Assembly: GCA_905250025.1 (NCBI GenBank)
Contig: CAJNOJ010000245.1
Span: forward strand, 62,001 to 126,000
Source of the DNA: Adineta ricciae
Lineage: Eukaryota; Rotifera; Eurotatoria; Adinetida; Adinetidae
Reading direction: 5' to 3'
Length of the DNA stretch: 64,000 nucleotides
Shown: in pieces, positions 1 to 30,304 of the stretch
How positions within the stretch are numbered: the first letter of the stretch is position 1
Layout of the letters: every line of letters begins with the position of its first letter
Notes under the pieces: generated by a model
Database searches by the model: none
What the model was told of the DNA's origin: nothing
What the model saw: only the letters and a program-made list of their open reading frames with translations
Made by a program: the position numbers and the translations under genes

Positions 1-2
1 CA

Positions 3-7551: not shown

Positions 7552-8357
7552 ACAAAACTTTTTATTTTTTTTATTCATTCACATATCTTATCTCTTCTTT
7601 TTCTTCTACTTCCATTTTCTGCCTTTTATCAATTTGAACATGTGTGTGAAAAATATGAATGATGATTAATCTATGCTTCGACAAAGCCAATAAGTTAATA
7701 ATAAATTTCTTTTCACTGACAGAGAAAATGACATCTTCGCTTACAGATCCTTGAAGATGAAATATTAATCTGTGTAAGAGATTGAGGAATTTACCTACCT
7801 ATAAATGTATTCTACTCATCAGTTGTGCGCTCCTTCAATATGGATCGGTATCGTTCTCCTCCGTGGTGCTAGTCACTATGCAATTATGTAAATCGGAAAG
7901 AAAACGTAGTTTTGACGAATAAATATACAGAGACAGAAGAAACTGGGGTGACCTCTCGCTCTCGGTCAAATTCTCTGTGTTCGTGCACAAGTCCAACAAT
8001 GTGTATAAATAATGAAATTAGTTCGCCTCTCCTTTTCAGATAACTCTCGTTAAATACATATCAAACCGGAAAACATGCAACTATCCTTTTTTTGTTCTTC
8101 ATCAAGATGTTCGTCGTTTCCTTCTAAGTATTCGACGTGACTACTCGTCGCGTTAATTTGATATATATTGTCTACACCGTGATATTCGCTACTAGAGAGA
8201 TGCCGCACATCTCCAATACGTATGAACATATATTTTCTAAATTCTTTCTCGGTGGTTACATTCACTGCCTGGATCCTTTGAGTTCGCTCTCGCTCTCCCC
8301 TTCCTCTATGTAATACATATAATCGTGTTCATTCATTTGTTTCAGTTTGGATAAAGG
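7552..8357. other. Intergenic, no gene seen
   Basis: Kinesin 3' flank with T-rich tracts. Minus-strand frames at 8050-8594 look fortuitous, and one of them runs through the transposon at 8358-8504. Confidence 0.5.
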
Positions 8358-8504
8358 CATTGGCGGGATAGGAGGGGAGAGGCAATTGTCCCCCAAAAAA
8401 ATTTTTTCAGCTATGAATTTGAAAAAAAAATGTCTTAAAGTAGGCATTTTTCTGCAAAAAAAGTGATTATTGCCCCCTAAAAATTGTGATCCGGCCCGCC
8501 AATG
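8358..8504. mobile_element. hAT-like MITE, 147 bp
   Basis: The ends are perfect inverted repeats: CATTGGCGGG at 8358-8367 and CCCGCCAATG at 8495-8504. The flanks are near-perfect 8-base direct repeats, GATAAAGG (8350-8357) and AATAAAGG (8505-8512), differing at the first base. The subterminal parts carry G/C runs and A/T runs in roughly mirrored order (gaggcaattgtcccccaaaa on the left, tattgccccctaaaaa on the right). An 8-base target duplication and CA..TG ends fit the hAT superfamily. There is no transposase, so it is non-autonomous. Confidence 0.75.
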
Positions 8505-8735
8505 AATAAAGGATATCGAATACCACACGCACGAAAATCCTTCCTTTTTTCTCGTAAGCACACGCAACCGAACGCGATGGTATGTATTTTTCATTGGTTC
8601 TCACTTCCTTTGCCTCTTTCGCGTTGCTATTGTTCATTATCGCTCATTCGTAGTCTCCTCCCTTATCTCTTTACTCATTCAGCGTGTCTTTTTCACAAAA
8701 GTATCATACACTGATTAGATCAAATAAGAGAAACG

Positions 8736-9314
8736 ATGGCGATAATAGAGGAGGTAAATAAAAATGACTACGATTAATCACCTTTTTTTAATTTTAGTTG
8801 GAAAAGTTGAAAGAAGATCGCATCCATTTTATCAAGTTACTCATCGGTGAGATCGAAACAGCTGCCCAGGTCGAATAATCCCATGTCGGATCCGAAACAT
8901 GGATTTTCTAAGGGTCATCATAGAACATAGCTAAAAGGATCGCTCATAAAATTTGCAACAACCGACGGGATTTTCCTAGTCAGATTCCGATGCAATTCCG
9001 TTTCCAGGAATCCGATCGGATGGTCGGATCCAGCATCGGATTTGTTGACCTGGATGGAGAATAAAACAAGGGAAAACGTGTTACGATTGTCAACCAACTG
9101 ATTGAGAAATTCCAAATACCGATACAAATCAACAGCAATGTAAGTTTCTCATTTTCCTTCTGTTAATTGATAAAGATTTGTTTCATCATTTTGCTAGTCT
9201 TACTGGTCTATTATAAGTCAAGTCGTACTAATGCCAAGTGCAGCCGAAAACTCTCAAAACTGTAGTGAATTGGCCAAGAGAATTTATTTGGAAGGACTTT
9301 TCTTAGTTTTTTAA
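8736..9314 (+). pseudogene. Possible small gene interrupted by inverted-repeat element
   Basis: Not recognised. A short ATG exon (8736-8753, MAIIEE) ends at a GTAAAT donor. It joins in phase at 8798 to a helix-like stretch (LEKLKEDRIHFIKLLIGEIE), which runs into the inverted-repeat element starting at 8865 and meets a stop there. Beyond the element, a frame reading GKRVTIVNQLIEKFQIPIQI (ending at 9139) is followed by a good donor/acceptor pair (9140-9197) and 38 more codons to TAA at 9312. The pieces have good splice sites but do not connect across the element, as if a host gene had been split. Each piece alone is too short for certainty. Confidence 0.3.
8865..9053. repeat. Inverted-repeat element, CCCAGGTCGA family (copy 1)
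   Basis: The left end CCCAGGTCGAATAATCCCAT is mirrored at the right end; the reverse complement of 9023-9053 begins CCAGGTCAACAAATCCGATG. Both continue to a GGATCCG word. The same CCCAGGTCGAT end occurs at 22276 and, inverted, at 22929. No open frame or clear target duplication was seen. It is probably a MITE. Confidence 0.45.
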
Positions 9315-9997
9315 AAATTACTGTTCTGCTTTATTCAGGTGAATGAATTGAGAAACGGAATCTTCGATTATTTAAAATGTGACTTTCATAGGACGTATTT
9401 TTTAATAAAATACTTTATTTTCTTTTATAGATTAATCTTTATGATCACCTGTTCGTTTCACATGGCATTTACTACAAGAAGTTCACATGAACGTGTTATT
9501 CGATAATTTGTTGACTAGCAAATAAAACTTTTTAAACAAACACCTGAAGAGAATAGTTCAATTTGAAAATTTCGGTTTTGTTACCATCAGCAGCATTTTT
9601 CGAATGTGTATTCTATTGGTGGACATGGCGTACACTTTCACGATTATGACTGTCTTCGCTTAGTACTGTTTCGATATCACTGATGAAATCAGTATTCTAA
9701 TTTCAATCTGATCCGCTAAAAGATCAGAACTGATACAATGAATCATCATTGCGAAGTCTCTCGTCTCGTGAAAGAGCTCATATTTGTCTTTCGTTGCGCC
9801 GAAAAACATCTACACTGTTTCCCATTGAAAAATGACTGATCTAATAGCAAAACGATTTTCGAAAAGGATTGCTGCAGCAAATAAAATGAAAACTTTCTCT
9901 TAAACAGAAACGGATTACAGAAACTAAGATGTGTAAGTCAATAAATGATAAAAATGTAAAACGTTTTATTTAAGGAAATATCAAATTCTTCTTTTTT
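9315..9997. other. Intergenic, no gene seen
   Basis: AT-rich, without motif-bearing frames. It includes the 3' flank of the minus-strand membrane protein gene. Confidence 0.45.
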
Positions 9998-11201
9998 TTA
10001 CAATTGTTGAGGATAAAACCGTTCATCCAGTGGAACATTATACCTAACATCTTCGTTTGAATCGTCTTGTAGGTGTTCGTTTCGAGATCGAAACATAGTC
10101 GACAATGGGCGACGTTGTATCGTCGCCAGCTTTGCTCTTGGTAATGACAATGGTGCTGGAACATCAGAGATTCGATAGTCGATGCTTGGATCTTTTGGTG
10201 GATTCAATAAACTTTCAGTAGGTGCCCATGAACAATCGTAAGATGATAATGTCGACTCGGCATTGTAACGAATTAACATTCTCTAAAGTATAGCTGGAAT
10301 TGAGATGAGAAAGTAAAGAACGGATATTTACTTGTCGATCGATATATTCAGTGTGGGCTTTATTTAATCGTCGAAAGTGAAAAATAGCGATGAAAATACC
10401 ACATAACTTCGAAGAGAAACGTAAGTTTGTGATTAATCATCTTTGAAGAAAAATTTTCGTTTTGAACTAACCGAAACCGTAAGACGAATCACCATAACGA
10501 CAAAGAGAATTTTCACTTGTTTTGATGGTCGATAAATCTAAAGAATATTACAAAAAAAATTGATTGCGTTTTGAATAGAAATCAGTTTACTTGTTGATGA
10601 TGTTGTCTAAGAGAAAGAACAGTAATAATTCCATCAGCAAGTAGCATGACAATCATTAATATTGACCAAAGAAATAAAAGCCATGGCTTACTCTAAGGAA
10701 GAAGCATTTATTCACAACTGATTTATCAAATCGGTCAATATTTTACTAATTGAATTCCACAAAGAAGAAGAATAGTCAGAAGAACGATCAAAAAATAAAC
10801 ACAAAGGGATATCCAGCTAAGACGAATCGTTTCAGGAGATGAGAATATTGACCAAAATATCGTTTCTAAAAATACACAAAATCAACTTGATTTCAACAAC
10901 TACAATGAACTACCGTTTTTATTATCTGTTAAATCAATTGACATCAATGTTGTTACGTCGATTAAAGTATACAACCCGCTGCTAGCATAAACAATCTGCA
11001 AGAAGATCGTGTGAAATGAGTAGAAATTGGTTTTCCTTTACTTACAATGATAATCAAAGCAATAGTTATCGATAGTGTAGACCATTTGATTTTACTGCAA
11101 ATCGTGTAATGATAAGATGTTGGAAGACATGAACAGGTGTAGGGATCGAGTAGATCATTGACGACGCCTGGTGTTATGATATTTTGTCTGTCAGCTGACA
11201 T
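9998..11201 (-). CDS. Four-span membrane protein, 7 exons, family not recognised
   Basis: Exons in coding order are 11046-11201, 10914-10995, 10747-10865, 10591-10692, 10472-10537, 10332-10406 and 9998-10282. They join in frame to about 294 residues. The N terminus is short and Cys-containing (DPYTCSCLPTS). Four hydrophobic segments follow (around STLSITIALIIIIVYASSG, ISLCVYFLIVLLTILLLCG, LLFLWSILMIVMLLADGII and VVMVIRLTVSLCGIFIAIF). The cytoplasmic-looking C-terminal tail of about 110 residues is rich in Arg, Pro and Ser. A segment between spans 1 and 2 carries two possible N-glycosylation-type Asn. The layout resembles small tetraspan families of animals (DUF4728/pasiflora- or LAPTM-like), but no diagnostic motif was seen, so no function is given. 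All introns are 47-83 bases. Confidence 0.8.
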
Positions 11202-14200
11202 TGAATAAGTCAGGAGTGAAATTGAAGAAGTAAGAGAATGTGTTTCGGTGAAATTCTTCCTTCTACCTCTGCCTGTTCGTTTCTGTTGTTTGTAGCACTT
11301 TTCGAATCTTCTATGATCGAAACGAACTAAAAGTAGAAGAGAAAAAAAATAAACAAATCGACTGTTAGATAAATTGATGCCTCGTAGCAATGTGATGTGA
11401 AACTAAGAGAAAGAAAAAGAAGAAAAGAATGAATTTGAATATTTGTACAGAAACTTTTAGTAAACATGTTTGTAAAGTTCGGTTGAATAAGCTTAGATGT
11501 TCTTCATTGACATACATATTTTGAAGGTGAAGTGATAAGCAAGAAAAGGCAAGATATTCATTTTTACTTTCATACAGGTTCAACACTGTTGACTTATCAT
11601 TTAAACCACGGCGTGAACGTAAAGTTGCGAACAAGTAACGCTCATCCTTTGGATTCGCTGACCATTGTCTGAAAGAATTAGGATGATGATCAACGCATTC
11701 ATATTCTCTAAGTAGTCATGATTCAGTAGGCAACTACGCTTAACATGTGACGTCTTTTTTTCTTTTGGCTACATGTAAACGTTCGTTGATAACATTAAAA
11801 CATTTAGAAACTTCAAATAATAACCGATAATAGGAGGAGAGTGGTGATTCGTAAGCAAAACTTTACATATAAAGACGATTTGATGACAAAAGATGATTAT
11901 TGCTGCAAGGAAGTTTAATACTGAATGTGTTTCGAAAAAGTGATCGTGGGAAAGCATACATTAGGTCGTGATTCATTCTATGTATCCTAAAAAAAGGAAT
12001 AAAGCTGTATGATTATTTATTTATTTTTATCCAATATCTGACTGTGTAACTTTCATATTCATATACGCTCGACAGATACCTTGTGGTCAGTCACCAGTAT
12101 GCCTCTGATTCAGCACTATCGGTTGATCGATTTTCCGTATCACATCGATCAGATAATGTAAATAACTTAATTTTTATTAATAGGATATCGGATTAGCGAT
12201 CACATATGGAAGGATATTAACTTTGGTGTACATAGAGACAGATTAATCAATAGAAAATAGTAATACTGGATCCTAAAATATTACAATCGCGTTCGTTAAT
12301 CCTTGCATAGCTTCAAATAAAACTATTAATTTTACTTCAGGAGACAATTACACTTAAAAGAGCATATTATTTCGTCCATACTCTCGAGTTTATATCCATT
12401 GTCAATTTAAAAGTCAAATAAAGTTGCATAGTAACTCAAAGTATATTCGATATGGATTGTTCATGAAACTAGCGAGTCGGTCGGCCACTCATGGCTAGCC
12501 ATGCTAATCCATGACATGTTTCTTCTATCTCTAACATCAATAATACTATCTTTTAGAATTATTTATGGGAACAGCTCCAATCTACTTCTACTCTAATCTT
12601 AAAATGGACGAGAGTCTTTCAACAACGTTGTCCCGATTTGAATAACAGTAATCGATCGCGAAGATAAATAAGCTAACTTTAACTTATCCACATATGTAGG
12701 ATGTGTTGGACACGAATTCGCCTTGGTGGCGATTTCAAGAGAACCAACACTCGTTTCAGATAGAACTCGATGAGCTCTATCGGTTCCATGTCTTATTTAT
12801 CAATTTTGAATACTATACAGCTGAGGGTATGGGTATATAAGTCAAACAAAATCTATTTCTATTCCTATCTAGTCGTTTACTGTCAGACTGATATAGATAT
12901 CTACTTATATTCGGATTGATATTAGTCTCTCGGGGATCGATTTATAATATAAATCGAATTAGGCGACTCACGCTTAACTAGGGCATAACTCTTTGTATTT
13001 CGTCAGTATTGAATGAAAGCTAAATAGGACAAAATAGTCTTTTATATGACATTTTCATGTTCTTATTCTATTATTTTATTCTACCAATCGCTCTTTTATG
13101 CTATTTATGACATAATCGAGCAGATATTTTTATCCAAACGATAAGTAATCAACTAGCTTCTCTATGAAGAGAAGATTAAATCATACCTTATATCTTCTAA
13201 GGATATCCGAGTCTAGACAGTCGAAACTGTCCAGCAGAAGACACAGTACACTGGAAGCAAAAATGGATGTGCGAAACTATTTTTGCAACGAAGTCGAAAT
13301 CGTCTTGGAGGTTTTCTTATAAGCCTGAGATGCTTCTATTGGAATTTTTGTGAGCTGCGCTCTCTTTTTTGGAGGTTTCGTAGTTTTTCTACGAAATCCT
13401 TCAAAAGTTTCATTTTACCTAAAAAATATTTTACAAAACCTTTGTTGTCAGTGGATAAGAGAAGAAAACCAACGTAATGCGTACCGAATGGATAACGTTT
13501 GTCCGCTCTACATAAATGTGAAGTTAGCACAACAAAGTATTATTAATCGACCAAATTCTACCTGAACATTGCAATCGAAGCCGCCAGAGAACTTTGATTA
13601 TGTATATAATTAGAGCGTACAATAATAAGCCAAATTGTACATACGCAAATTTCCTGAGATGGCAGGATCGTATGATGTGCATCACTCTTACAAAACAGCA
13701 AAATGGTGAAACTATGAATTTAGTATTTAATTAGCATTGCCAATCGTTTGAAGAGTATTAGTAGATTTTTTTCTTGTTGTTATCAAAGAAATCAAATCGT
13801 GGTAAATAATTTTAGTAAGAGACTATGAATGCGCATCAATTAAGTAATACAATAGATTTTCAGGCAAGTCATATGAGCAATATGTATTTCAGCAAAGGAA
13901 AAACCGATGCTGAAGAACTAGAACAATGTAGTTCCATTAGTTTCATAATTTATTGCAGAAAACACAATAAAATCCTATGAAACAATATAGCATGTAGCAC
14001 GCTTTACATAAAATGCTATCCTCCACAATTAAATAATAATTCAGGTACTACTTTACCCTTCGTTGTGAATGTTTGCATTTGTATATCACGGTTATTGTAT
14101 TGTAAGAAACTAATCGGCAATTATCTTTTAACAGCACTACGGATGTTTTAAAGTAAGATGCTACAGCGTTCTCGTAGATTTTATGATTATCTTTAAAACC

Positions 14201-15179
14201 ATCTGCTTGGAGATATCGAAAAGCGGCTTAACTTTTCCAATAAACTAAACGTCTTGTTTCCTGAGAGAATCGACAACATTTCTAGTGTTTCGAAGGTTTT
14301 TCACGTTTTCTTATTTAATGAAATACCATGGAGTGATTAATTCATCAAAATGAATTCACGACAAATTGCTAGAGCACCTCGGTGAGGGAGTTGGCATTCT
14401 ATTTATGTAAAAGATGCTGAGTGTTCTAACTCATTCTTCAACACAAAAAAAACAGATATATATATTAGGAGTAGCAAGTTAACGTCACTCCTGCGGTAAA
14501 CCGTAGCTCAATTTTATATTTTGTGGCTTCAAAAAGAAATAAAAGATCATGTAAGTGGTTTTTCAGGTTAACAAACGATCATTTTTTCTTTTATTTATCA
14601 TTGAATACCACTTGGGAAGGATGAACCGAACACACTGAGAGATGCTGCATGAAGCTCTCAGCAAACTATATCGTGAAACTTTTTACAGTCATGTATTTTT
14701 TTTACTGCAAAACGTCAAACGATGCAAATCAATCAGTCAAAACTAACTGGTTAGCATTTAGCGTTCTCGAAAACAAAATTTACATAACCAAAATAAATCT
14801 CTAGTGTAAGATGTAGAGTTTTTCATTTTCCACTATATGTTTTAATTAAAAAATTAATATAGAGATGTTAATTCCTATTGAAGGAAATCGAATCGGCTTG
14901 CAAAAAAGTCAAAGGCACAAAAGATTTCCCGCTTTAATTCTTAAGTTTACCATTGTAAATTTCAAAACAGAATTCACTAAACATACATATTCTAATGCCA
15001 TCTATCTGCGCAAGCCAACAATTCGCAATTGTTGAAATGATTACACGTCATTTGTTTTCATCTTAAACATAAATAACGACACCAACAGCATGAATAATTA
15101 CTTATAAGGAACAACATCATACATTTTTCATCGCTTCCAGTCTCTACGGTACGGTCTGCTGCACGATTGAAATTACAAC
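11202..15179. other. Long region without a recognised gene
   Basis: About 4 kb of AT-rich DNA. Minus-strand frames at 11365-11957 and both-strand frames near 13283-13565 show no splice continuity or domain. Small perfect palindromes are present: CATGGCTAGCCATG near 12502, a 19-base one centred at 12947 (CGATTTATAATATAAATCG), and hairpins GACAGTCGAAACTGTC near 13217 and TTTCGTAGTTTTTCTACGAAA near 13376. The segment 11625-11665 (minus) shares the coding-like words SANPKDERYL with 20648-20685 (plus). I see nothing else. Confidence 0.45.
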
Positions 15180-18116
15180 ATGCACACATTTTCCACATTA
15201 CCCGTCGAACTTGTTTATCGAATTATGGATCATCAAAATGAGCTGACGCTATTTTGTTCAATGCAAAATATTTCCCGGCGGCTCAATCAGATCCTGAGCA
15301 CCTATGAGCGATATCGAGTAAGTTTACTAGGCATCTTAACACTCTTGTCGGTTGTGCTACGTATAAGCCTAATGATATTTGACATCGTAAATTTGCTCAT
15401 AGGAATAGGCACAGTAATTTCATAATCCCCAAACAATCCGATCGAATCAAACAATAACAGTACAAACTCATATGAAATCAAGCATTCTTCCACTCTCTCG
15501 CTCTTATTCTATGTACATGGAGGATGCATTCGCCCGATACGCGACTATGAACGAACAAAACGCTTAGTCATGCGTTACCGTTTGTTTGCTGAGCTACTCG
15601 ATTCATAATTTGCACAAATTAGAACTTTTGAGGGAGCTCATCAACCGAAGCAAACAGCACTGCACAGTTGCTAGACCTATCCCAATACACATTCTTAACA
15701 GGGGTACATCAAATCCAACTCCTACATTTGACAAGAGTAGGACTTCGATTTCCTTCTGACGAGCTTTCGAAAGGGATATTCCAACACAGCACCTCTTCTC
15801 TCAAAGAAATATTCCCTGAACAACAACTGGCATCCTTACTCACACCAAAAGCTGCCATATAGATCCAACTGCTCCCAAAAATCGTCCCCACATATAACTA
15901 TTTCGTATCACATATATTCGACCCAAACTGCCATCGAAGGTTCTCTTTCCTGCTTCCATTTTTCATAATATATCACTCTAATGCAGACACTCATCACACT
16001 AGACCTCGGCGGCAACAGAGTCGGTGATAAAGCAGTACAACATATTGCGGGTGCCTTGCGAACGAATACGGTAATATTTATCTCATTTCCCAGAATATGA
16101 ACCAGTCAGTTTATCTCACACCTACAGACGCTCACCACACTACGCCTCGAGGGCAACGCAATCGATGATAAAGGAGTACAACATATTGCGGATGCCTTGC
16201 GAACGAATACGGTAATTTTGATCTCATTTTACAGAATATAAAGCACTCAGTTTCTCTCACACCTACAGATCCTCGGTACACTACACCTAAGTTGGAGCAC
16301 AATCGATGATGAAGGAGCACAGCACATTGCGGATGCGTTGCGAATTAATACGGTTATACTGATCTCATTTCCCAGAATATACAGCAATCAATTTCTCTCA
16401 CACTTACAGACACTTAACACACTACACCTCTATTCGAACCGAATAGGTGGTGAAGGAGCACAGCACATTGCGGATGCGTTGCGAACGAATACGGTTATAC
16501 TGATCTCATTTCCGGAAGATAAAGTACTCAGTCTATCTCACGCCTACAGACACTCACCACATTACATCTCAGTCGGAGCAAAATCAGTGATAAAGGAGCA
16601 CAACACATTGCGGATGCGTTGCGAATCAATACGGTTATAGTGATCTCATTTCCCAGAATATAAAGCACTCAGGTTCTCTAACACATACAGACACTCACCA
16701 CAGTACGCCTCAGATGGAGCAAAATCGGTGATAAAGGAGCACAACACATTGCGGATGCCTTGCGAATGAATAGGGTAACATTGATCTTATATCACAGAAG
16801 ATGAAGCAGTCAGTTTCTCTCACGCCTACAGACACTCATCACACTAGACCTCGAGGGCATGGAACCCAGTGCTGAAGGGGTACAACACATTGCGGATGCG
16901 TTGCGAACGAATACGGTTATACTGATCTCATTTCCAGAAGATGAAGTACTCAGTCTATCTCACGTCTACAGACACTCACTATACTACACTTCAATTGGAG
17001 CAAAATCGGTGATAAAGGAGCACAACACATTGCGGATGCGTTGCGAATCAATACGGTTATAGTGATCTCATTTCCCAGAATATAAAGCACTCAGTTTCTC
17101 TCACACCTACAGACACTCACCATAGTAGACCTCATCTGCAACGGAATCGGTGCTGAAGGAGCACAGCACATTGCGAATGCGTTGCGAACGAATACGGTAA
17201 TTTTTATATTATTTCACAGCAGATGAAGTACTCAGTCTATCTCATACTTACAGACCCTCACCAGCCTACATCTTCAAAGCAACGAAATCGGTGCTGAAGG
17301 AGCACAACATCTTGGGGAAGCGTTGCGAACGAATACGGTAATTTTGATCTCATTTCCAGAAGATAAAGGACTCAGTCTATCTTGCACCGATAGACACTCA
17401 CCACACTAAACCTCAGTTGGAACAAAATGGGCGCTGAAGGAGCAGCACACCTTGCGGATGTGTTACGGACCAATACAGTAATATTGATCTCATTTCAGAG
17501 AATATGATCCAGTCGGTTTATCTCACACCTACAGACACTCACCACGCTACACCTCGTCTGCACGGAAATCGGTACTGAAGGAGCAGAACACATTGCGGAT
17601 GCGTTGCGAACGAACACAGTAATATTGATCTCATTTCAGACAATATGAAGCACTCAGTCTATCTCACGTCTACAGACACTCACCACACTACACCTCGGTT
17701 GGAGCAAAATCGGTGATAAGGGAGCACAACACATTGCGGATGCGTTGCGAACGAATACGGTAACATCGATCTCATAGCACAGAAGATGAAGCAGTCAGTT
17801 TCTCGCACGCCTACAGACACTCAGCACACTAAACCTCGAATGCAACGGAATCGGCGGTGATGGGGCACAACACATCGCGGATGCGTTACGAATCAACACA
17901 GTAATATTGATCTCATTTCAGACAATATGAAGCACGCAGTCTATCTCACATGTACAGACACTCACCACACTAAAGCTTACGTATAACGAAAAGGATGGGG
18001 AAATAGCGCAACGTATCGACGAGGCGTTGCGAATGAATACGGTAATATTGATGCTGTGTTCGGCGAGGTTGGGAATTTCTGTTTTATCTGATTCTCAGGG
18101 CGTCAAGATGGTGTAG
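15180..18116 (+). CDS. F-box-like/LRR (RNI-type) protein with 15 modular LRR exons
   Basis: Exon 1 (15180-15317) encodes 46 residues starting MHTFSTLPVELVYRIMDH, an F-box-like head, and ends in phase 0. Fifteen exons of exactly 84 bases follow, from 15987-16070 to 17958-18041. Each is one 28-residue ribonuclease-inhibitor-type repeat (TLTTLxLxxNxIGxxGAQHI, then ADALRTNT). A short last exon (18099-18116) adds GVKMV and a stop. All units are open and phase 0 at both ends, giving about 471 residues. Intron 1 (15318-15986) is long; a 64-codon frame inside it (15668-15862) could be an extra exon, but I could not connect it. Some LRR introns start GTTATA, a weak donor. RNI-type repeats bind proteins; the partner is unknown. 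Confidence 0.8.
15987..18041 (+). repeat. Tandem exon-intron array, 141-base period, 15 copies
   Basis: Unit starts are 15987, 16128, 16269, 16410, 16550, 16691, 16832, 16972, 17113, 17254, 17394, 17535, 17676, 17817 and 17958, so spacing is always 140 or 141. Each unit is an 84-base exon plus a 56-57-base intron. Introns are also alike (for example gatctcatttcccagaatat, then ctcactcctacag-like ends). The unit being copied therefore includes the intron. Confidence 0.95.
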
Positions 18117-18610
18117 ATCTGGCAGTGGATTCGATCGAAACACAAGTGATCGTGGATCTGATGGTTCTTTGCGTATATTGGATCTTTTTGGATTGAGAAC
18201 TTAGTAGATATCATTGGTTGTGTGGTTTTCGTGACATTGAGGAGTAGTAAAGGTATAGAAAATGAATTTGTTGTGAGAAGTGAATGTGACCTGAATGTTA
18301 ATGCTTCTTGTTCTGTGAGAAATGTATGTGCATTGGCGGGAATGAATGGTGTAGTTACGAAGGTGTAACGGAGCCGTGTTTGGTAGGAGAGGTGCCATGG
18401 TGCGATGCGTTTATGAGTGATCGTCTCGGTTTGGAGTTTGTTTCTGAGAGGGTTTGATGGACAAGCATTCGCTTTTCGGAAAGAAAGGGTTATGGCGTTC
18501 TAAAATCGGTGACTCAAAAGCTAAATGTTCGTGAGTTTGTCCAATCCAATCAGGTTGCAGCTTTTTATGAACCAATGAAACATTAGAGATGACCATACAG
18601 AAATGATTCA
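18117..18610. other. Intergenic, no gene seen
   Basis: 3' flank of the LRR gene. It is locally GT-rich on the plus strand and has no convincing frame. Confidence 0.5.
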
Positions 18611-19010
18611 CCTGAGGTAATCAAGGTTGAGGATCACAAATGCGATATTAGTTTTCCGTAAAAACTATCTGTCCTGTTTTTGCGACAACGGTTCACTTTT
18701 TTGCAAAAAGAAATTTGTTTGATAAGGGTTGATTGAAAGGTAATCGAGGTCGAGGAACTCGGATCTGAAGTTAGTTTTAACTGATTATTAACTATTAATT
18801 AACTCTAAGTCAACTAGAGATAAATTATTAATGTGCAGGGTAAGCGTTGACCGAGAGGTAAATGACGTCGATGAATTCGAATCTGGTGTTTATTTTAACT
18901 AATAATTAACTTATTATTAACTATGCATAGAATAATAATGTTCACACTAAGGTTTGACCGAAGGGTAATCGATGTCATGGAATTCAAATCTGAGCTTAGC
19001 TTTTTCTTAT
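18611..19010. repeat. Diverged tandem repeat, about 107-118-base period, about 4 units
   Basis: Units start near 18611, 18727, 18845 and 18952. Each opens with a form of TTGACCGAAGGGTAATCGA, then a GAGGAATTCAAATCTGA-like stretch, then TTAGTTTTAACTGATTATTA. The first unit is the most diverged. No protein frame is kept across units. Confidence 0.6.
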
Positions 19011-19195
19011 TCATCAATCTTAGACTTTTTCCTTTCTTCATTCAAAAGAGACATTTTCTGTGTGTTTTATAAATTCTATTGTAGAAGATAGTTGTTTCGG
19101 CGATATTCCCGAATGTGATATGTACGAAGACAGTAGTTTATGGAGCTTACACAAAAAGATCTGGTATATCTTACATTATGATATTAGTAGTTTAA

Positions 19196-20239
19196 CCCTT
19201 TCCAGCCGGGTGTATCCATATGGATACAATTTGCTGTAGGGGACGGGGAGTACGGCATTATTTGAATAGTCGGCCGGAGGGAGGTCGACGAACAACTAGG
19301 CGTTCCTTTTGAAAGTTATTCGAAAGATGAAATTGACAAGAGTCGCAACTGGTACCAGTGGCTTTTTTTTTAAGAAACATGATTGATATCTCTTCGAGCT
19401 TCGAGAATAAGCTATGCGGATTACCAACTTCTTAAATTGAAGAGAACAATAAAATATGTACTGTAAATCACAGTTTTGACGAATTTTGATCATTTCGATT
19501 AAAAACCGACTCAGTATGAACAAGATGCTTTTGTATATGAAAAAATCATAGATACTTTTTATGTATCAACGACTAGGCGTTAGTTTCAGAAGATTCCAAG
19601 AAGCGAAAAGAGTATGAGAAAAACATCGGGACAAATAATCGAATGGGTGGATTATTCAAATGAAATAATTTCTATTTCTTTCTTTTGAGGAATAAAAGGA
19701 TCTGATGATATCATTTCAGAAACGGGCTGGCGGTTACTGTGCCTCGTTACTTATTTTATTTAGTTGAGTGTGCAGTAAAAAGGAACTTCAATATCTTTTA
19801 CACTTCCAGTTAAGTCGATTTTCCTGACTTAGACTAATTCGCGTATCTATAATTTATTATAGGTCTCTTGTCGTCCGGTCATTTTTCGTAGACGTCTTGG
19901 ACAGTTTGAGAAACAACTCATACATTTTCTCTGGATGAAGATGAAAATGAATTATATATGGAACGTACCGTATAGAGCTGGTTCGGTCTGAGTTCACGAT
20001 GGAAGCCAGATTCACCAACGGTTAGACATTTATATGAACAGTTAGGTTGAAAGTGAGAATTCAAAGAACTAGATAATTTGAATGATTTATAAAGAAACTT
20101 GGTTGATACGGTTTGATGAAGGAAATTACCTGATTATTCGTTAGTAAAAACGGAAAGAAGAATGAAATGCGTGATCTAGATTACACTATCCGATGAAGTC
20201 CCACTACCTCTGATGAGAAACCGGCCGATTATGAACGGG
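19196..20239. mobile_element. Putative piggyBac-like non-autonomous element
   Basis: The left end is TTAA|CCCTTTCCAGCCGGGTG (TTAA at 19192-19195). The right end reads GATTATGAACGGG|TTAA (TTAA at 20240-20243). TTAA target sites and CCC..GGG termini are the piggyBac pattern, and CCCTTTCCAGCC resembles known piggyBac ends. Just inside the left end is the perfect 18-base palindrome TGTATCCATATGGATACA (19211-19228). The two terminal repeats match only loosely, and no transposase frame exists in the 1.04 kb, so the right boundary is uncertain. Confidence 0.45.
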
Positions 20240-20243
20240 TTAA

Positions 20244-20894
20244 TTTTTTGCACTGGAAATACCAAACTGATTGTATATGCGTCAACGACTAGACGTTAGA
20301 ATTCCAGATTCGCCGTAGAGTATACGTGTGAGGTAAACTTATCAAGAATCAAAGATTTTTAAAAGGAACTTCGCGAACGCTCAATGAAAATATTCGATAG
20401 GGTATTATTTTCCTGAAAGAATAGAAAAGAAGCAATTGTTAGCTGTGAAACACAGCTCACACTGTACAACTACTCACTGACGAATTCCTAATTGGTTCGT
20501 TTCATGAAAAACGAACAATCTTTGCTTTCTATTAACTCTAATGCGTGACACAGTGTCATGATTCAGCTGAGGACTAGTGACAATCGCAGTGTCTTATGCG
20601 TTTTTCAAACCGTTTGAACATGTTCAGCAGCAGAAAAATTCTTTCCGAAAAGGGTCGGCGAATCCGAAGAATGAGCGTTACTTGTTATATATTTGACGAT
20701 CATATACAAAAATCGAGCTCAAGTACTGCGGAAGGAAAAGGCATTTCGACAAATATTTCATTCATTTGATCTTGAAGAACAGGAAATATTTTCGAGAGAA
20801 ATTCTCTTCTACAAATGAAAATCCTTCATTCTTTTTCACATTAAACGTTGAATAAGATATCTTGGGCTTATGTTTGTAACAGTATAGTGTCAAA
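20244..20894. other. Intergenic, repeat-like, no gene
   Basis: No gene. It contains a copy of the ACGACTAGACGTT word (20285) also present at 19569 and, in altered form, at 19292. The short coding-like word SANPKNERYL (20650-20680) is shared with 11625-11665 on the other strand. Confidence 0.4.
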
Positions 20895-22275: not shown

Positions 22276-23060
22276 CCCAGGTCGATCGTTCCGGCGACTG
22301 GATCCGTTGAAATCTGAGTCGGTTTCGGTACAGCTCTTCTCGATTCCAGCAAGTTCCGGCAGGTTCCAGACGCGTTGACTACGCCTTCGATGACCGATAT
22401 GATCCGAACTCGATCTTGTGGATTCTGCAAAAAAAACACAGAGGATTGTATTTTCATGGAAACTACTCTATGCAGAAGAAAAACACCTCTTCCTGTACTA
22501 GAACAGTCATGTCTGAGACGGACAATATGATCTTCTACGCTCAGAAAATTGATCTATCTTTTCTCGCGAAGGAAGAGCACAATGAGCATAAGAAAGAATG
22601 AATCAGACAACAACGGACAAAGTTCACAGCACGCAAATAATCGACTAACTTGTGTGCTCGATCGCCCACTTTTCATGTATGTTGGACGAATGAAAAATGT
22701 TGTCTTTTATATACCCGCGCGTACACAAGCGAGAGAGTGATATCGGAATGATTTTGGTGCCTGACTATAGCAAAATATCGACTGAAAACAATATACCTAG
22801 ATCGAAGAGAGATACACGATGTTATATTGTTCACTAGCCGTGGCAACAAGTACCCAGATTATCATGGCTTGACCGGTTCCGACAGGTTAAGTTCGTTTTC
22901 CAACGATTTCCTTGCCGCCGAATTCCAGCCGGAATGATCGACCTGGGTAAGAGAAAATAGTGATAATATGCTAACATCGAAGAGAATGAAAAAGAAAAAA
23001 TCAAATATATATTGAACAAGGCATCCATGTTAATCGAAATTACGTCAAAGGGGCTGTTGG
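22276..23060. repeat. Long diverged repeat, copy B, with CCCAGGTCGA inverted ends
   Basis: Second copy of the repeat at 20979-21632. It carries an extra stretch (about 22855-22950) absent from copy A. CCCAGGTCGATCGTTCCGGC at 22276-22295 is inverted at 22929-22948 with one mismatch, so 22276-22948 could be a discrete element. The same end sequence marks the small element at 8865. Confidence 0.5.
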
Positions 23061-23486
23061 ATACCTTCATGATTCGTGGATCACACATTGATCGCACAAA
23101 TTTAACTGGTATACATACAGTTTTCTGGAGGCGTGAGCACTGAAAATCTCTATGCTTGAAACCGTTAGTAGATTCTTGTCATCAACCTACATAATCTAAA
23201 TGAAATTGTTTTACTCAATGACCCATTTTCACATTGTTTGCAGAACAAGACTATGGATGAAGGAAGATTTCTCGTTTTCATTGATTGATTGAGGTTGTAG
23301 CTGACATAAAACTATGTATTCACTCGCCTCTTCGGCGTTCGTCAGATAATGATGATAGAAGAACTCTTTTAATATTTCTCATACAAAAGAAAAGGCGATG
23401 TATTTATTTCGTAGAAGTATAAGTACTAAAATCAAGTAGCATATTATTTCTTGGATAAAACTAGAAAATGGTCATAGTTCATTCTT
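23061..23486. other. Intergenic, no gene seen
   Basis: Spacer between repeat copy B and the 3' end of the SDR gene. No motif or frame of interest. Confidence 0.5.
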
Positions 23487-24545
23487 TTATTTACTAGAAA
23501 CCATTTGTTCACTTAACTTCCATAAACGTTCAGCAGCTTCCATATCTGTTGCATGCGGTGCCATGCCTAAAAACCTTTCAGTTGTGTTTACTCCTTTGCT
23601 AATTGCACAATCTTCTAAATATTCTCCACCATGATTTTCAAGTTCAGGTGCTAACGCAGCGTAAACACTAGTCGAAGCACCTTGTTCGATATTTTTGAAA
23701 CCATCAAGAAGTGATCCATCTTCTTTATACCATCCCATTGCACGTTGTTCTTCCACCGGTACATCTTTTTGTAAATTAGTCATTATTCCACCTGGGTGTA
23801 AAGCATAAGCTTTAATTCCTTGTGATTCGTACAACTTGTTCAATTGTTTAGCAAAAAGGATATTCGCCGTTTTACTTTGTGCATAAGCTAACCATTTATC
23901 ATAACTTTTCTCCCAATTCACATCTTCCCAATGGATACCACCACGCTTATTTGCCAATGAACTAACAACAACAACTCGTGATGGGTTGCCAGCTTTGAGT
24001 TCAGGTATGAGACTGGTTGTTAGAAGAAAATGCGCAAGATGGTTAACGCCAAATTGTGATTCGAAACCATCGATCGTCTTTGTGTATGGACATGCCATGA
24101 TTCCTGCATTGCCTATTGGAAGTATCGATCAAAGAGAGGTTAGTCAAAACAAATATACACTTACAAATGAGAATATTGATTGGTAATTTACGAGCTTGAA
24201 ATTGTTTAACAAAGTTTCTGACGGATTCGAGTGAAGTAAGATCCATTTCCATCACTTCGACTTTATTGTTATTTGTAGATCTTTTAATATCCTCTACAAC
24301 TTGTGCACCTTTCTTCATATCCCGTGCGGTTATGATTACATGTGCATTTGCAGATGCTAATGCACGAGCTGTTTCAATACCAATGCCTTAACAGAAGGTC
24401 AAGCTATTTCTACAATGAAGTTTTCAATTGATTTCTTACCTGATGTGGCACCGGTGATAAGTACGATTTTATCGTCTAATTTCGCATTAAGTCCTTTAAC
24501 AATTTCAAGTGCAGTTGATTTAGCATGAAAAGCTGTCGACGCCAT
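23487..24545 (-). CDS. Short-chain dehydrogenase, retinol dehydrogenase/WWOX-like
   Basis: NAD(P)-dependent oxidoreductase, likely acting on retinoids, steroids or other lipid carbonyls at a membrane. Exons are 24440-24545, 24165-24386 and 23487-24112; they join to 317 residues. Motifs in order are VLITGATSGIG (cofactor loop, split by intron 1), DLTSLESVR, NAGIM (split by intron 2), VNHLAHFLLT, VVVVSSLANK (catalytic Ser) and YAQSKTANILFAKQL (catalytic Tyr-x-x-x-Lys). The HPGGIMTNL stretch after the active site is typical of the RDH11-14/WWOX branch. Length matches the family. There is no WW domain and no obvious N-terminal membrane anchor, so this is the soluble type of the branch. It is divergent from the PPR gene, with 840 bases between the two starts. 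Confidence 0.92.
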
Positions 24546-25385
24546 CGTGACAAAGCAATTTTTATATAGGACACAACAATGTTTTTCTTTCTCCTTTTAT
24601 ACTATCACACAATGTTGTGGATTAAATGTCAACGTGCTATTTATTTGCGTTTGTTTCTTTGCTCGTTCTGTCATGAGTATGAACGCAACCAAAGGACTGT
24701 CGAGTACGCGTACGACAAGTATTTTCTCGATCAATTTTGTCATCACTGATATACTGTGAAAGTAGATCTGTTCTTCTTCGTCACGATTGTGTTTTGCCAC
24801 ATGATAAACTAAATGATTAATCTGGATTCACTATATTTCTGCAATTGAAAAAGTCTGATTTTGTGAATCTTAAAATTTGTTTAACATGAAAGAGCGTAAA
24901 CATTCGTTCTAAGAGAAACTGTATCAACGAAAGGAAAGGCCCATGACCAAAGTATGCATTCCCCACCTATCTTGCAATTTTATGCCAAAATTAAGTTAAA
25001 AACCTGATTCATAATATTAGATCATATCATAATTATTTGTTAAAACCTAAGTACTCTATTTGAAGAATTTCTTTTGACTCATTGATCAGATCTGTTCATA
25101 TCACTATGTCGTGTGATATGACACATTATTCTCTATTCGAATATGTGAATAAAAACTGCATGGCAGATGACGCTGATTATTGATGCTAAGGCATGCCTCC
25201 AGATTTCTAATGGTTTATTTTGTTTTTCAGTCATTTCTTTCGATTGGTCAATAGTTTTACTCGAATTTACTTTATGAATTTCGGAAAACGGTCTCGATTT
25301 CGATATTCTCATTTGAGCTGAACTGAATCAATTCATCTCGTTACATTCCAGATCGAAATAGTTGATAAAACAAATCGTCTGTCTG
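24546..25385. promoter_or_regulatory. Divergent intergenic region, SDR and PPR-DYW genes
   Basis: Holds both 5' flanks of the head-to-head genes. I see no TATA box placed convincingly at either start and no protein-coding frame with a motif. Confidence 0.4.
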
Positions 25386-28300
25386 ATGTTGACCAAAATA
25401 GCAAACTATCATCCATCATTTTCGATGATCATTTTTAATCGATCAGCAATTACCAACTCTGTTTTTAGTTTGAGCAATCAAATGAAACTATTGAATGATA
25501 ATAAGCAATTTTCGAAAACACTTCAACTATTTGAAAAATATCGAAAAGATAATAGTGAAAATTTATCAAGTTTGACTATCACACAAGTTTTGAAAGCGTG
25601 TGCTCACTTAAAAGATATTCAATGCGGAAAAATAATTCATGATCGTGTTTCATCACGTATAAAAGATGATCCTTACATCTTAACAGCATTGATTCAGATG
25701 TACAGTAAGTTATCAGATGAGGTTTTCTGTCATATTTTCTCTTTTCATAGTGTATTGTGGTGATGTTACAAGTGCTGAGAGATTAATTGAAAAGTCAATG
25801 ACAAAGGATACACCAATGTATACTGCAATAATGAAAGGTTATACATTCGATCTGCATAGAAATATTGTCTAAGGCATTCAAATTTTAGGTTATTTAAAAA
25901 ATAATCAAGCATATAGAGCAATTGAAGTTTTCCATCAGATAAAGACTCCTAGTGACACAAATCTGATTGTTTTCTTTCAAGCGTGTGCACATCTTGAAAC
26001 ATCAGAAGCATTAAATTTAGTGAAAAAAGTGTTAAACACAATGCCAGCGTCGTTTTATAACAATGAATACCTTCTGTCATCTCTATTGCACACATTAATG
26101 CAACATGGAGATATTAAACATGCTGAAAGCATATTCCATGAGTCAAAACAAAGAACAGCATCAGTGTGTGCGACAATGATGAAAGGTGAGACGTACTATG
26201 TGCTTCGACATATTTAATTAACTTTTGATTTCAGGCTTTATAACAAATGATCAAGCAGATAGAGCAATTGAAATTTTCACTCACATTAGAAAACCTGATG
26301 CAGTCAATTTCATTATTTTCTTCAATGCTTGTGCTAAACTAGGTAGAAAAGAAACATTAAATTTAATAGAAAAAGCATTGAAGGAAATACCATCATCATT
26401 CTATTCGAATCCTCGTCTTGTAACTTCTTTATTGGATGCATTGATGCAATGTAGAGATGTAAGACAAGCGGAAATATTCTTTAATACAACAAAACAAAAA
26501 GTTTTGTCAATGTACGGAGCAATGATGAAGGGTTATGTTACAAACAATCAAGCAGATAGAGCTATTGATCTTTTCAAACAGATCAAACATCCTGATGACA
26601 TCGTTCTTATTATTTTCTTCAATTCCTGCGCTCAATTACGGACTACGGAAGCTTTACATTTGGCAGGAAAAGTTTTGAAAGAAATACCCTCGTCATTCTG
26701 TTCCAATACAAATCTTTTAACATCTGTATTAGATGCCTTGATGCAATGTAAAGATGTTGAACAGGCAGAATCGATATTTAATGCATCGAAACAAAAAGTC
26801 ATGGGAATGTATGGAGCAATGATGAAAGGTTATGTGACAAATAATCAAGCAAATAGAGCCGTTGATCTTTTTAACGAAATTGAACATCCTGATCATGTCG
26901 TTCTGAATCTTTTATTTAACGCTTGTGCTCAAGTACGAACTACCGAGGCCTTGACTTTAGTGAAAAAGATTTATCGGACAATGCCATCAACTATTCATTC
27001 CAATTATTATCTGTTGACTTCTATATTGGATGCATTGATTAAATGTCGAGATACTGCAAGTGCGGAAATTCTTTTTTCGAAAATAAAAAGATCGGTGATT
27101 AACTATGGAAATTTAATGAATGGATTCAATGATGAAAATCAAGCAGAAAAAACAATCAAATTATTCTATCAAATGAAAAACGAAGGCTTTGAAGGCAGTG
27201 TCATCACTTACTTATGTGTCATAAGAGCTCTATCACTAATTGGTGATTATCCATTAGCTCAATCAATAACTAAACAAATTCCCAAATCTATTTTGATCGA
27301 TCGGAAGATTCAGAATGCTTTAATAGATATGTGGGTTAGTTGCGCGACTATTCTTCTTCTCCCCTCGAATGTTAAAATAAAGAACTATTCGTTTAGGGTA
27401 AAACTGGATGTGTCGATAAAGCAAGACAAATTTTTGAAAAGTGTTCCAATCCAGATGGAATTACATACACAGCGATGAGTATGCATTGTTGACGTACCTT
27501 TTTCTATGAGGAACTCGAACAACATTTTTATCTTTAGTTAACAGTTACGCACTAAATGGAATGAGCATGCAAGCCATTGAGCTTTTCTCCCAAACACCCG
27601 AAGAATTCATTAGTGAAGCGACTTATATTTGTGTATTGAATGGATGCTCACACGCTGGTCTTACTGATCAAGCTCGTTCGATTTTTCACGTTATCAAACT
27701 GAAAACAGAACGAATCACGACAGTTATGGTATCTGATCGATAATCATTTTATTCCAAGAGAAAAGTATTTTTCGTTGTAGGTCGATTGTCTTAGTCGTGC
27801 ATCATTATTTGTCGAGGCACAAGAATTGATTGATCAATTCGAACATACACATTCACCTGAAATAGTCATGTACAGTAGGCATCTTTTGTAGTATTTCTTT
27901 CGGTGCAGAATCAAAAATGTCTTTTTTTTACTCGGTTTAGTGGCATTGCTGTCAGGCGCTCGAAATGAAAAAAATAGTGATCTAGCACAAAATGTCTATA
28001 ATCGAATGAAAATATTGTTTCCTCTTACAAAAGATTCGTTAACATCTGCTTCAGTTCTTCTTGCAAATACGTATGCATCAATCGGCGACATTAAAAAATC
28101 ATCAGATATTCGAATGGGATTGCATAGATCAGGTGCAAAGAAGAAAGTTGGTAAATCCATGACTGTAGTTGATGGAGAAGTTTATGTAAGTTCAAACACG
28201 AATGATAGTTTGGAGTAATGTGAAACGATTCGACCGTAGGAATTTCGTGCTCATGACAGATCCCATCCTCGATCAGTTGAAATTTATCATGAAGTGCAGA

Positions 28301-28665
28301 AAATATCTGAGGAATTAATCGCACATGGTCATGAATATGATTCCAGTTGGATCACACGAACAATGGATGATGACGAAAGTGTCGCATCGATTCTATGTGG
28401 TCATAGTGAACGATTGGCCATCGCATGGAACTTTGTAGCAAATCCACATACGAGCAGAATTCAAGTCACGAAGAACTTACGGGTTTGCGGCGATTGTCGT
28501 AAGTACTGATTTGATATTTCGTTAATTTATTAGTTAGCTTTAATTACAGATCGAGCAACAAAGTTGATCGCTGCAATTCGAAGGTGTGAAATCGTTGTTC
28601 GAGACGCATATCGAATTCATCATTTTCACAAAAGTGGACAATGCTCATGTAATGATTATTTTTGA
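25386..28665 (+). CDS. PLS-class PPR protein with C-terminal DYW-type domain
   Basis: PPR proteins bind organelle RNA one base per repeat; plant DYW domains are cytidine deaminases for C-to-U editing. Ten exons (25386-25704, 25751-25837, 25889-26185, 26235-27334, 27397-27478, 27538-27728, 27781-27874, 27941-28185, 28240-28498, 28550-28665) join to 929 residues. PPR motifs fill most of the protein and repeat as a 99-residue block ([14 protein letters not shown]..., ending DALMQC..). An E-like segment leads to [13 protein letters not shown] (HxE zinc/catalytic site), [13 protein letters not shown] (CxxCH) and a C terminus SCNDYF in place of plant GDYW. The Met chosen follows in-frame codons; the basic N terminus could be a mitochondrial signal. 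DYW proteins are known from bdelloids and are thought to be horizontally acquired. Confidence 0.93.
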
Positions 28666-29200
28666 AAGAAATCCCCGTATTACTTTTCCCTATTTGTTCA
28701 AACTTTAATTAAAAAAAGGCAGTTGATTATTAAAATATCTTAATAATGCCGTAGATTGGTTGTGTACAATGCTTCGCGAAATATTCTTGAGGGTGAAGAA
28801 TGGATATATGTGCTCTAAAGGAAGGAAACTAGTGTCAATCAAAAATTTTCTCTTCTCTCACTTGCTTATCTTATTGGATACACAATTTAAAACTCATATA
28901 ACGCAAATCAAACGTCAACATAGTGGTTGCAATATAAGCGAGAGCATTGTCACAACAGAAAACTTCTTCAAAATATTTCTCTTTCCTCGATGTAACCAAT
29001 AGATTTTAGTTTCTTATCAGCATTACGTTCAGTAGAAAAACTATTTTGGATTGAAAAAAATCCTCACCCTTATGATTTAAATCAGTTGACACAACGCCTT
29101 TCAGTGTATTTTGATAATATTTACTAATCCTATGATGCTTGGAAACAAACGAAGATTTACAAAATGTTTCATGTACAATCGAATGCTAATTTTAAACCAA
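28666..29200. other. Intergenic, no gene seen
   Basis: 3' flanks of two convergent genes. The frame at 28760-29002 has no motif. Confidence 0.5.
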
Positions 29201-29596
29201 TTAATCATATTCCATTGATTCAATTTCTGTTGATTCATCCTCGAGATTCAAGCTTTGAAACAATGTAAATGGATCTTTGGTTTGTTGATTAACAATCTTT
29301 TTCGGAGGGGATTGAGGTTTATTAATATAATCTAATGCTTCTGATGCAGCAAGTTTTTCAGCTACTCGCTTTTTTGTAGACCGATCACCAATAAATGTCA
29401 TTCCATCTACTATTACTTCGACCTACGTTACAAGAGAAAATAATTTTTCATTTTCTAAATCTATTCTCACTTGAAACATAGGAGAATGGTCAGGACCTGT
29501 TTTTTCTATCAGAGAGTAAATTGGCAATGGCAGATTTCGTTGTTGACAATATTCTTGAAGACGATTTTTAGCATCATCAACGTCTATAATACTCAT
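29201..29596 (-). CDS. Single dsRNA-binding domain protein
   Basis: Exons 29471-29596 and 29201-29422 join in phase 0 to 115 residues. It opens MSIIDVDDAKNRLQEYCQQR, helix 1 of a double-stranded RNA-binding fold. The strand region LPIYSLIEKTGPDHSPMFQV and VIVDG follow. The closing motif is RSTKKRVAEKLAASEALDYI, whose KKxAE..AA helix contacts RNA. A Ser/Pro-rich, then acidic C-terminal tail of about 40 residues follows. The upstream sequence ends in an acceptor-like TTTTAG at 29617, so more 5' exons (perhaps other domains) may exist. Family (Staufen, PRKRA/Loquacious, ADAR-type or RNase III tail) cannot be fixed from one domain; the sequence alone says dsRNA binding. Confidence 0.75.
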
Positions 29597-30304
29597 CAAT
29601 TGAGAACAAATCTAAAATAGAACGAGATGTATATCCGTATAGAAAATGCACAAGATATGTGCCGTGTTATCTGCCGATTTTTGAATAAAATTTCCTAATT
29701 TTTTCTGAATTTCTAGAGTATAATATACTGATCATTATCAGTATGTAAACCAGACAAAACATCATGTGAGTATTACTATTCTTACGTTTGTCTGTTTTCA
29801 GTTATTCAAATAGGTAAGTAAACTAATGAATTATTTTCATCATTCTGATAAGCATAAACACGTAAAACGTTTAACAGATTTTTTACATTTTGGACTTTTT
29901 TCTTCCTTCTTTTCATCACGTGTCAAATTTATGCGTTCTCCTTGTATTTTAGCAGGACTGTGTTGTTTTGAATTATTATTGAATTTGATAAAAGTACTGA
30001 GAATGAGAGTAGATTAAGATGAGCATGACTTATCAAGTTGTGGCCGGCTGCGTGAAACAACTCTATAAAATTTCGAAAAGGTAAATAGTTGTATAATTAC
30101 AGATATAATCATAACTACCTGAGGAATAAAAAACATTCATGCTGGAAGAGGAAAAAACTCCAATAAAAGGAGAAAAACATCGTAAAACCCCTTGCGTGAT
30201 GTGTAGCTCGTTGATGATGACTATATAACTAGAAAAACGGTCTGAAAAATGTTAAAGGAAGAAATATTCTGGTGTTTACAAGTGAAAAAGTCTTCTGCAA
30301 CTAC
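29597..30304. other. Intergenic, no gene recognised
   Basis: It may hold 5' exons of the dsRNA-binding gene. The frame at 29826-30017 lacks a motif. Confidence 0.4.

Follow-up and report, generated by a model that had tools for sequence, protein, structure and literature searches.

How animals that lack regular sex hold their own against parasites is a long-standing question, and bdelloids are known as a group without ordinary sex. A locus of the bdelloid rotifer Adineta ricciae raises this question in a concrete form: does a gene assembled from a row of uniform leucine-rich repeat (LRR) exons encode a receptor that diversifies, and if so, by which route? A preliminary description had called it a recognition gene built to diversify. 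We analysed the 64,000-nucleotide stretch that contains the gene (hereafter the window, C245:62001-126000) and searched the 130.5-Mb assembly, which comprises 1033 contigs, for its relatives. Positions are those of the window unless a contig is named.

An array of fifteen uniform LRR exons

The gene model has the following parts.

15180-15317 (+): exon 1, 138 bp, encoding a 46-residue head (MHTFSTLPVELVYRIMDHQ...), phase 0, donor GTAAGT
15318-15986 (+): intron 1, 669 nt, ending in CAG, with no coding signature seen
15987-18041 (+): array of 15 LRR exons with a period of 141 (140 after units 4, 7 and 10), each encoding a single RI-type LRR of 28 residues
LRR exon starts, units 1-8 (+): 15987, 16128, 16269, 16410, 16550, 16691, 16832, 16972
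LRR exon starts, units 9-15 (+): 17113, 17254, 17394, 17535, 17676, 17817, 17958
16353-16409 (+): intron after unit 3, 57 nt, without an in-frame stop; its retention would add 19 residues
18042-18098 (+): last intron (after unit 15), 57 nt, without an in-frame stop
18099-18116 (+): terminal exon read from the first AG, GVKMV and a stop, the predicted end of the window protein

All 15 LRR exons are 84 bp long, in phase 0 and free of stops, with AG before and GT after in 15/15, and therefore the skipping of any one of them preserves the frame. The 14 introns between them measure 57 nt in 11 cases and 56 nt in the three that follow units 4, 7 and 10. Tandem Repeats Finder recovered the array independently (period 141, 14.1 copies, score 2147) and also gave a period of 422, that is three units (score 2269). 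A lag of three units is weakly favoured in the window array, at a modest P of 0.04, and the 56-nt introns recur at each third unit. A position-weight model of the unit scored 94-143 at the 15 exons and at best -38 anywhere else in the window on both strands; since it was derived from the same 15 units, only the gap between these scores is informative, and its scan found no further unit-like sequence on either strand of the remainder. In a Pfam scan the encoded protein matched LRR_6 over 13 stretches (E 7.3e-74; 238.5 bits against a cut-off of 23.4), and its PDB matches were ribonuclease inhibitor (1dfj, E 5.9e-29) and the LRRs of NLRs. With the LRR_6 cut-off passed, the window protein is an RI-type leucine-rich repeat protein, and the exon read-out, Tandem Repeats Finder and LRR_6 together confirm the preliminary description of 15 open phase-0 84-base exons with one 28-residue LRR each, a 141-base period and 56-57-base introns.

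Upstream of the array, the gene model was aligned with 14 relatives (15 sequences). Exon 1 is open and conserved throughout this alignment, and intron 1 carries scattered substitutions and frame-breaking gaps. The ORF at 15632-15862, inside this region, was at first a candidate for a second coding exon but was dropped because of these gaps. The head had been described as F-box-like. The resemblance stands (12.8 bits in the Pfam scan), but the score is below the F-box cut-off of 24.3. An F-box-like match was listed for 10/10 members of group A1, one of which is another window ORF, with E up to 5 and a best E of 5.9e-5 that is not attributed to a particular member; a profile search of the PDB with the A1 profile, which includes that other ORF, gave no F-box match. 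An F-box identity of the head is thus only suggestive.

A large gene family

The gene is a member of a large family in the genome and not a singleton. A DNA search gave 103 matches to head or array, with 40 of 90 candidates scored. At least 69 full-length head copies share 80% identity or more, and none of the 69 contains a stop (150 of 232 candidates scored); no other head match exceeds 72% identity except for two partial matches, one at 97% that a contig end truncates and one at 79% over 24 residues. A 22-base exon-end pattern hit the genome 594 times, compared with six hits for the reversed pattern. From 30 loci (the window and L010-L038) we extracted 427 exons, 0/427 with a stop; 391/396 introns are GT-AG and 388/396 are 57 nt long. 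One LRR per exon with uniform length and phase holds for 15/15 exons in the window, and the 30 loci fit it through a scan that used the window-unit model at a fixed length of 84 bp. Divergent or broken units may be missed by such a scan, which favours intact units, and broken units are therefore under-counted: one divergent or broken unit was missed in L022. L018 spans parts of two genes, and although the assembly contains Ns, the only one inside the 30 arrays lies in L018.

Further copies stand outside this count. L001-L009 overlap the 30 loci or each other except at two places, a C9 locus (L001/L002), where one of 10 units contains a stop, and a piece of C52 (L005/L006) with three units; part-arrays in L049-L054 add 26 units without a stop.

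The last splice acceptor distinguishes the window gene from most of its relatives. An AG two bases downstream of the first AG is present in 27/30 loci and opens the tail RQDGIDLALNSIGEQV... in many of them; read from this second AG, the tail runs RQDG-I/V-DLALN... in many loci, with early stops in several. L037 and L038 have the second AG only, which suggests that it is the family's acceptor. It is absent from the window gene, L027 and L028, and the window protein is therefore predicted to end in GVKMV.

The missing acceptor, together with the stop in one C9 unit, would fit an array that is non-coding satellite-like DNA or a dead gene. However, not one of the 427 exons carries a stop and the splice sites are conserved. 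We judged this explanation unlikely from the open frames and splice sites, and consider it very improbable indeed.

Among introns of length 3n in the 30 loci, 348/389 carry an in-frame stop, compared with 59% of shuffles, with the caveat that the introns are related and not independent cases. This excess points to control of intron retention and has no bearing on exon skipping. The LRR exons could allow one gene to yield many receptors by skipping LRR exons, as the main use of their phase-0 84-bp design. Skips would be frame-neutral at 15/15 window exons, and splice variants with different LRR exons are described for brown algal LRR-ROCO genes in the available text of PMC11378527. The intron stops are silent on skipping, and we regard it as quite unlikely that splicing is the main source of diversity here.

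Turnover of units among paralogs

Comparison of the arrays makes germline turnover of units among paralogs well supported. Unit number ranges from 11 to 19 in the 24/30 arrays retained by a completeness filter that required a head, a tail, regular spacing and the absence of N (L018, L028, L031, L032, L036 and L038 were dropped). Among 359 interior units with a 57-nt intron, the nearest unit lies in the unit's own array in 222/359 and in another array in 96/359, with ties in 41/359; 11.6 own-array cases are expected by chance. All 18 of the 18 pairs with three or fewer differences fall inside one array, often at non-adjacent places. The introns behave likewise, with a mean difference of 0.110 within arrays and 0.167 between them. 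Since exons and introns both cluster within arrays, exon and intron have been copied together, and the proposal that the copied unit is exon plus intron is borne out.

L026 and L029, which lie on contig C7 and form the closest pair, illustrate the process. Their flanks are 96.2% identical upstream and 95.2% downstream, but the arrays hold 17 and 12 units and are non-collinear, with a clear unit correspondence for the first unit only (96%). In L026, 12/15 interior units lie at 0-7 nt (0.95-1.00 identity) from another L026 unit, and near-identical pairs number five at 0-1 nt, or six counting one nearly so. Six pairs of L026 units thus differ less than the flanks, so their multiplication postdates the L026/L029 split. 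The best intron matches across the pair (0.91-0.98) stand at about the flank level; therefore, the difference lies in unit content and not in a higher neutral rate. In a C440 pair, the downstream flank is 95.8% identical over 1300 bp, yet units match at 0.84-0.89 only. Of the 45 pairs whose first introns are more than 0.88 identical, 32 have a best-match unit identity below that of intron 1 and 13 do not.

The C7 and C440 pairs are inverted and were considered as allelic palindromes. They were counted as paralogs instead, because 3-kb stretches about 1.5 kb past the arrays mismatch within either pair; the C7 stretches beyond the arrays match the C440 ones across pairs at 79-93%.

Diversity at four residues

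Diversity among the units is highest at a few residues. In the unit TLTTLxLxxNxIGxEGAQHIADALRTNT, entropy peaks at residues 8, 9, 11 and 6, then 14, and the hydrophobic and Asn positions are nearly fixed. We take residues 6, 8, 9 and 11 to be the outward residues of the inner beta strand (the concave face) in RI-type LRRs. The four were picked after the entropies were known. At codon positions 1 and 2, units of one array differ pairwise by a mean of 0.505 at these residues and 0.087 at other codons, compared with 0.124 in the introns. The ratio to introns at the four residues is 3.65-4.62 (bootstrap over the 30 loci) and exceeds 1 in 30/30. Other codons lie at 0.64-0.79 of the intron level and fall below it in 26/30 loci, which also speaks against a dead gene. 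Pooled over all units, the values are 0.567 for codon positions 1 and 2 of the four residues, 0.195 for the intron core and 0.100 for other codons. Selection is measured here as a ratio of diversity to introns and not by a codon-site model, and constraint on introns would inflate this ratio. The intron value (0.124) is in line with that of third positions in the remaining codons (0.138). Excess diversity at these predicted exposed residues is thus well supported. The preliminary expectation of a constant hydrophobic core and variable surface residues held up, with the residues around LxLxxN varying far above the intron level.

The same data can be read in another way, in which these are ordinary modular LRR genes with structural or housekeeping roles, for example as scaffolds or as adaptors for the animal's own proteins. 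Unit turnover would then be a neutral by-product of tandem repetition, and the variability at exposed sites would come from relaxed constraint together with a local increase in mutation. Several human gene families contain LRRs that are modular by exon (available text of PMC6642158), and tandem units recombine in any genome. Moreover, third positions are diverse at residues 8 (0.62) and 9 (0.61) as well, and raised at residue 6 (0.40). However, relaxed constraint alone should not carry diversity beyond the intron level, and the four residues stand at about four times that level, with an excess in all 30 loci. A plain mutation hotspot is also a poor fit, because diversity is low at the third position of residue 11 (0.07) and at residues 10 and 12 (0.02-0.12). 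The raised third positions can arise from selection on multi-base codon changes, but a certain local increase in mutation may contribute to them too. We therefore consider ordinary LRR genes a rather unlikely account, and diversifying selection on a recognition surface the better one.

The locus and its flanks

Window 22980-30000 has a 96% match on contig C264, which probably represents the other haplotype. No LRR unit was found in the C264 stretches examined (L055, L039, L048), and the difference extends to the whole block around the gene.

11630-20686: gene-containing block, 9.06 kb, absent from the C264 stretches examined (including L055, C264:84900-92600)

The block ends in a 50-bp inverted repeat (11630-11679 and 20637-20686, 88% identity), and the adjoining window 7976-11605 is inverted in C264. 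Both insertion and loss are possible origins of the difference between the window and C264. The idea that units vary in number without frameshift holds among paralogs (11-19 units in 24/30 arrays), but length variation between alleles was not found. For one C182 flank, a search for a second copy elsewhere in the assembly gave only partial matches, at 65% and 70%.

A block of this kind raises the possibility that a mobile element carries the gene as cargo, and that copies of the gene spread by transposition and not by selection for diversity. In favour are the 9.06-kb block itself, which encloses the gene between inverted repeats and is lacking in C264, and the case of Adineta vaga, where an LRR gene may have been moved by a Penelope element (available text of PMC3846280). 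Several observations weigh against this. No target-site duplication was seen at the block ends. Window 18467-20686, which abuts the gene unit and whose right end is the 50-bp inverted repeat, is a separate 2.2-kb dispersed repeat, with pieces 86-92% identical to copies elsewhere (L040, L041, L042). Other copies of the gene share more upstream sequence and have the 50-bp motif at another place and in the other orientation. No transposase or other element protein was recognised by eye among 20 open stretches of at least 110 aa in the flanks of ten neighbouring loci. Finally, transposition would explain dispersal and not the diversity at four residues. Mobile cargo thus seems an unlikely account of the family.

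Two further features of the flanks were observed. In several family copies (L056 and L057, at C1:218000-225700 and 230800-238600, and L053), a 50-bp motif like the inverted repeat, in the opposite orientation, lies some 660-850 bp upstream of the 5' edge that the copies share. A stretch of about 400 bp that lies downstream of the gene in L058 (positions 15-464; C7:1023400-1026400) recurs at 83-91% at at least 34 further places, with 40 of 351 candidates scored and many of the places on contigs with family copies; the dispersed unit therefore seems larger than the gene.

The window also holds other genes, with PPR, NHL, polycystin channel and LRR among its contents. A PPR-like protein with a 297-bp (99-residue) tandem repeat lies at 26225-27478 (PPR_2, E 4.6e-25), and 26230-28670 has relatives at 67-80% on C461, C887, C371 and C1. 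A long Gly-rich collagen-like protein with DUF7932 lies at 48937-52218.

Comparison with known systems

The closest precedent is the LRR-ROCO genes of brown algae. In Ectocarpus and Saccharina, the available text of PMC11378527 describes tandem arrays with one fixed-length LRR exon each, exon shuffling and positively selected concave sites. The arrays described here share one LRR per fixed-length exon, tandem organization, unit shuffling and excess diversity at the residues that we place on the concave face. They differ in repeat class, phase and partner domain: LRR-ROCO exons are 72 bp long in phase 2 and encode 23-residue LRRs, whereas those of the present family are 84 bp long in phase 0 and encode 28-residue RI-type LRRs, and the algal LRRs are joined to a ROC-COR GTPase, whereas here a 46-residue head precedes them and the Pfam scan of the gene's protein found no ROC-COR domain. 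A gene organization of this kind is thus already known from brown algae.

Vertebrate NLR and ribonuclease inhibitor exons, in the available text of PMC6642158, likewise encode RI-type LRRs with strict modularity and borders at the same place in the repeat; that text describes no turnover of units inside an array. However, NLRP3 exons are 171 bp long with two LRRs, compared with 84 bp and one LRR here, and NLRs carry NACHT; the Pfam scan found no NACHT domain in the head or the LRR protein, which is therefore not an NLR receptor by this measure. Apart from the LRR family, 40 NACHT matches were found genome-wide, 38 above the cut-off and many in open frames longer than 1000 aa, by a search that also matches 11/14 control genomes (over the cut-off in three); none of the 40 lies on contig C245.

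In the zebrafish NLR-B30.2 family, as far as the available text of PMC4852459 describes it, a large family also shows positive selection in one recognition module, with gene conversion. That selection is reported in B30.2 and not in LRRs, whereas here the excess lies within the LRRs. The variable lymphocyte receptor of the lamprey type is assembled somatically from flanking donor cassettes, whereas the assembled gene here is already complete. Adineta vaga has a large LRR family, one gene of which was possibly moved by Penelope, in a genome where PPR, TPR and NHL families are abundant as well; the contents of the window (PPR, NHL, polycystin channel and LRR) fit this list of expanded families in part (PMC3846280, available text), which mentions neither exon arrays nor unit number nor selection. 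A telomere motif, sought as a sign of a bdelloid, gave forward/reverse counts of 20/37, close to the 23/36 of the control. Among the titles and abstract openings listed by searches of an open-access library, from which most subscription journals are absent, none describes such arrays in rotifers.

Discussion

A germline-diversifying family of RI-type LRR recognition genes is the best reading of these data, and we consider it probable. The earlier view of a recognition gene built to diversify gains from the germline turnover among paralogs and the excess diversity at four residues; it loses in that the F-box score is sub-threshold and allelic length variation was not found.

According to this proposal, a small conserved module would form the N terminus of the protein, and the 28-residue RI-type LRRs behind it a horseshoe. 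Each repeat has an 84-bp phase-0 exon to itself, along with an intron of about 57 nt. Since the exon sets both the length and the frame of its repeat, recombination can add, remove and reorder repeats while the protein stays intact. The paralog comparison shows such gain, loss and reordering to have taken place in the germline, and substitutions would then have been favoured at residues 6, 8, 9 and 11, the presumed concave face. The likeliest role, we infer, would be the recognition of changing partners, for example parasite or microbial proteins. The head would link whatever is bound to a shared pathway, which might be ubiquitination should the head prove to be an F-box. Expression, partner binding, an immune role and F-box function are thus predictions from the DNA. 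As a bolder and more tentative extension, which may well not hold, the family could be a repertoire of dozens of loci in which cassettes are gained, lost, reordered and exchanged under selection on the concave face, with a germline and possibly a somatic or splicing generator, as a bdelloid system parallel to and independent of LRR-ROCO.

If this reading is right, an animal lineage has evolved an exon-cassette receptor under strong diversifying selection, apart from those of brown algae and vertebrates. In bdelloids, this would bear on how animals without regular sex keep pace with parasites, and the question would become testable, because the number and order of units can be read for each clone by long reads.
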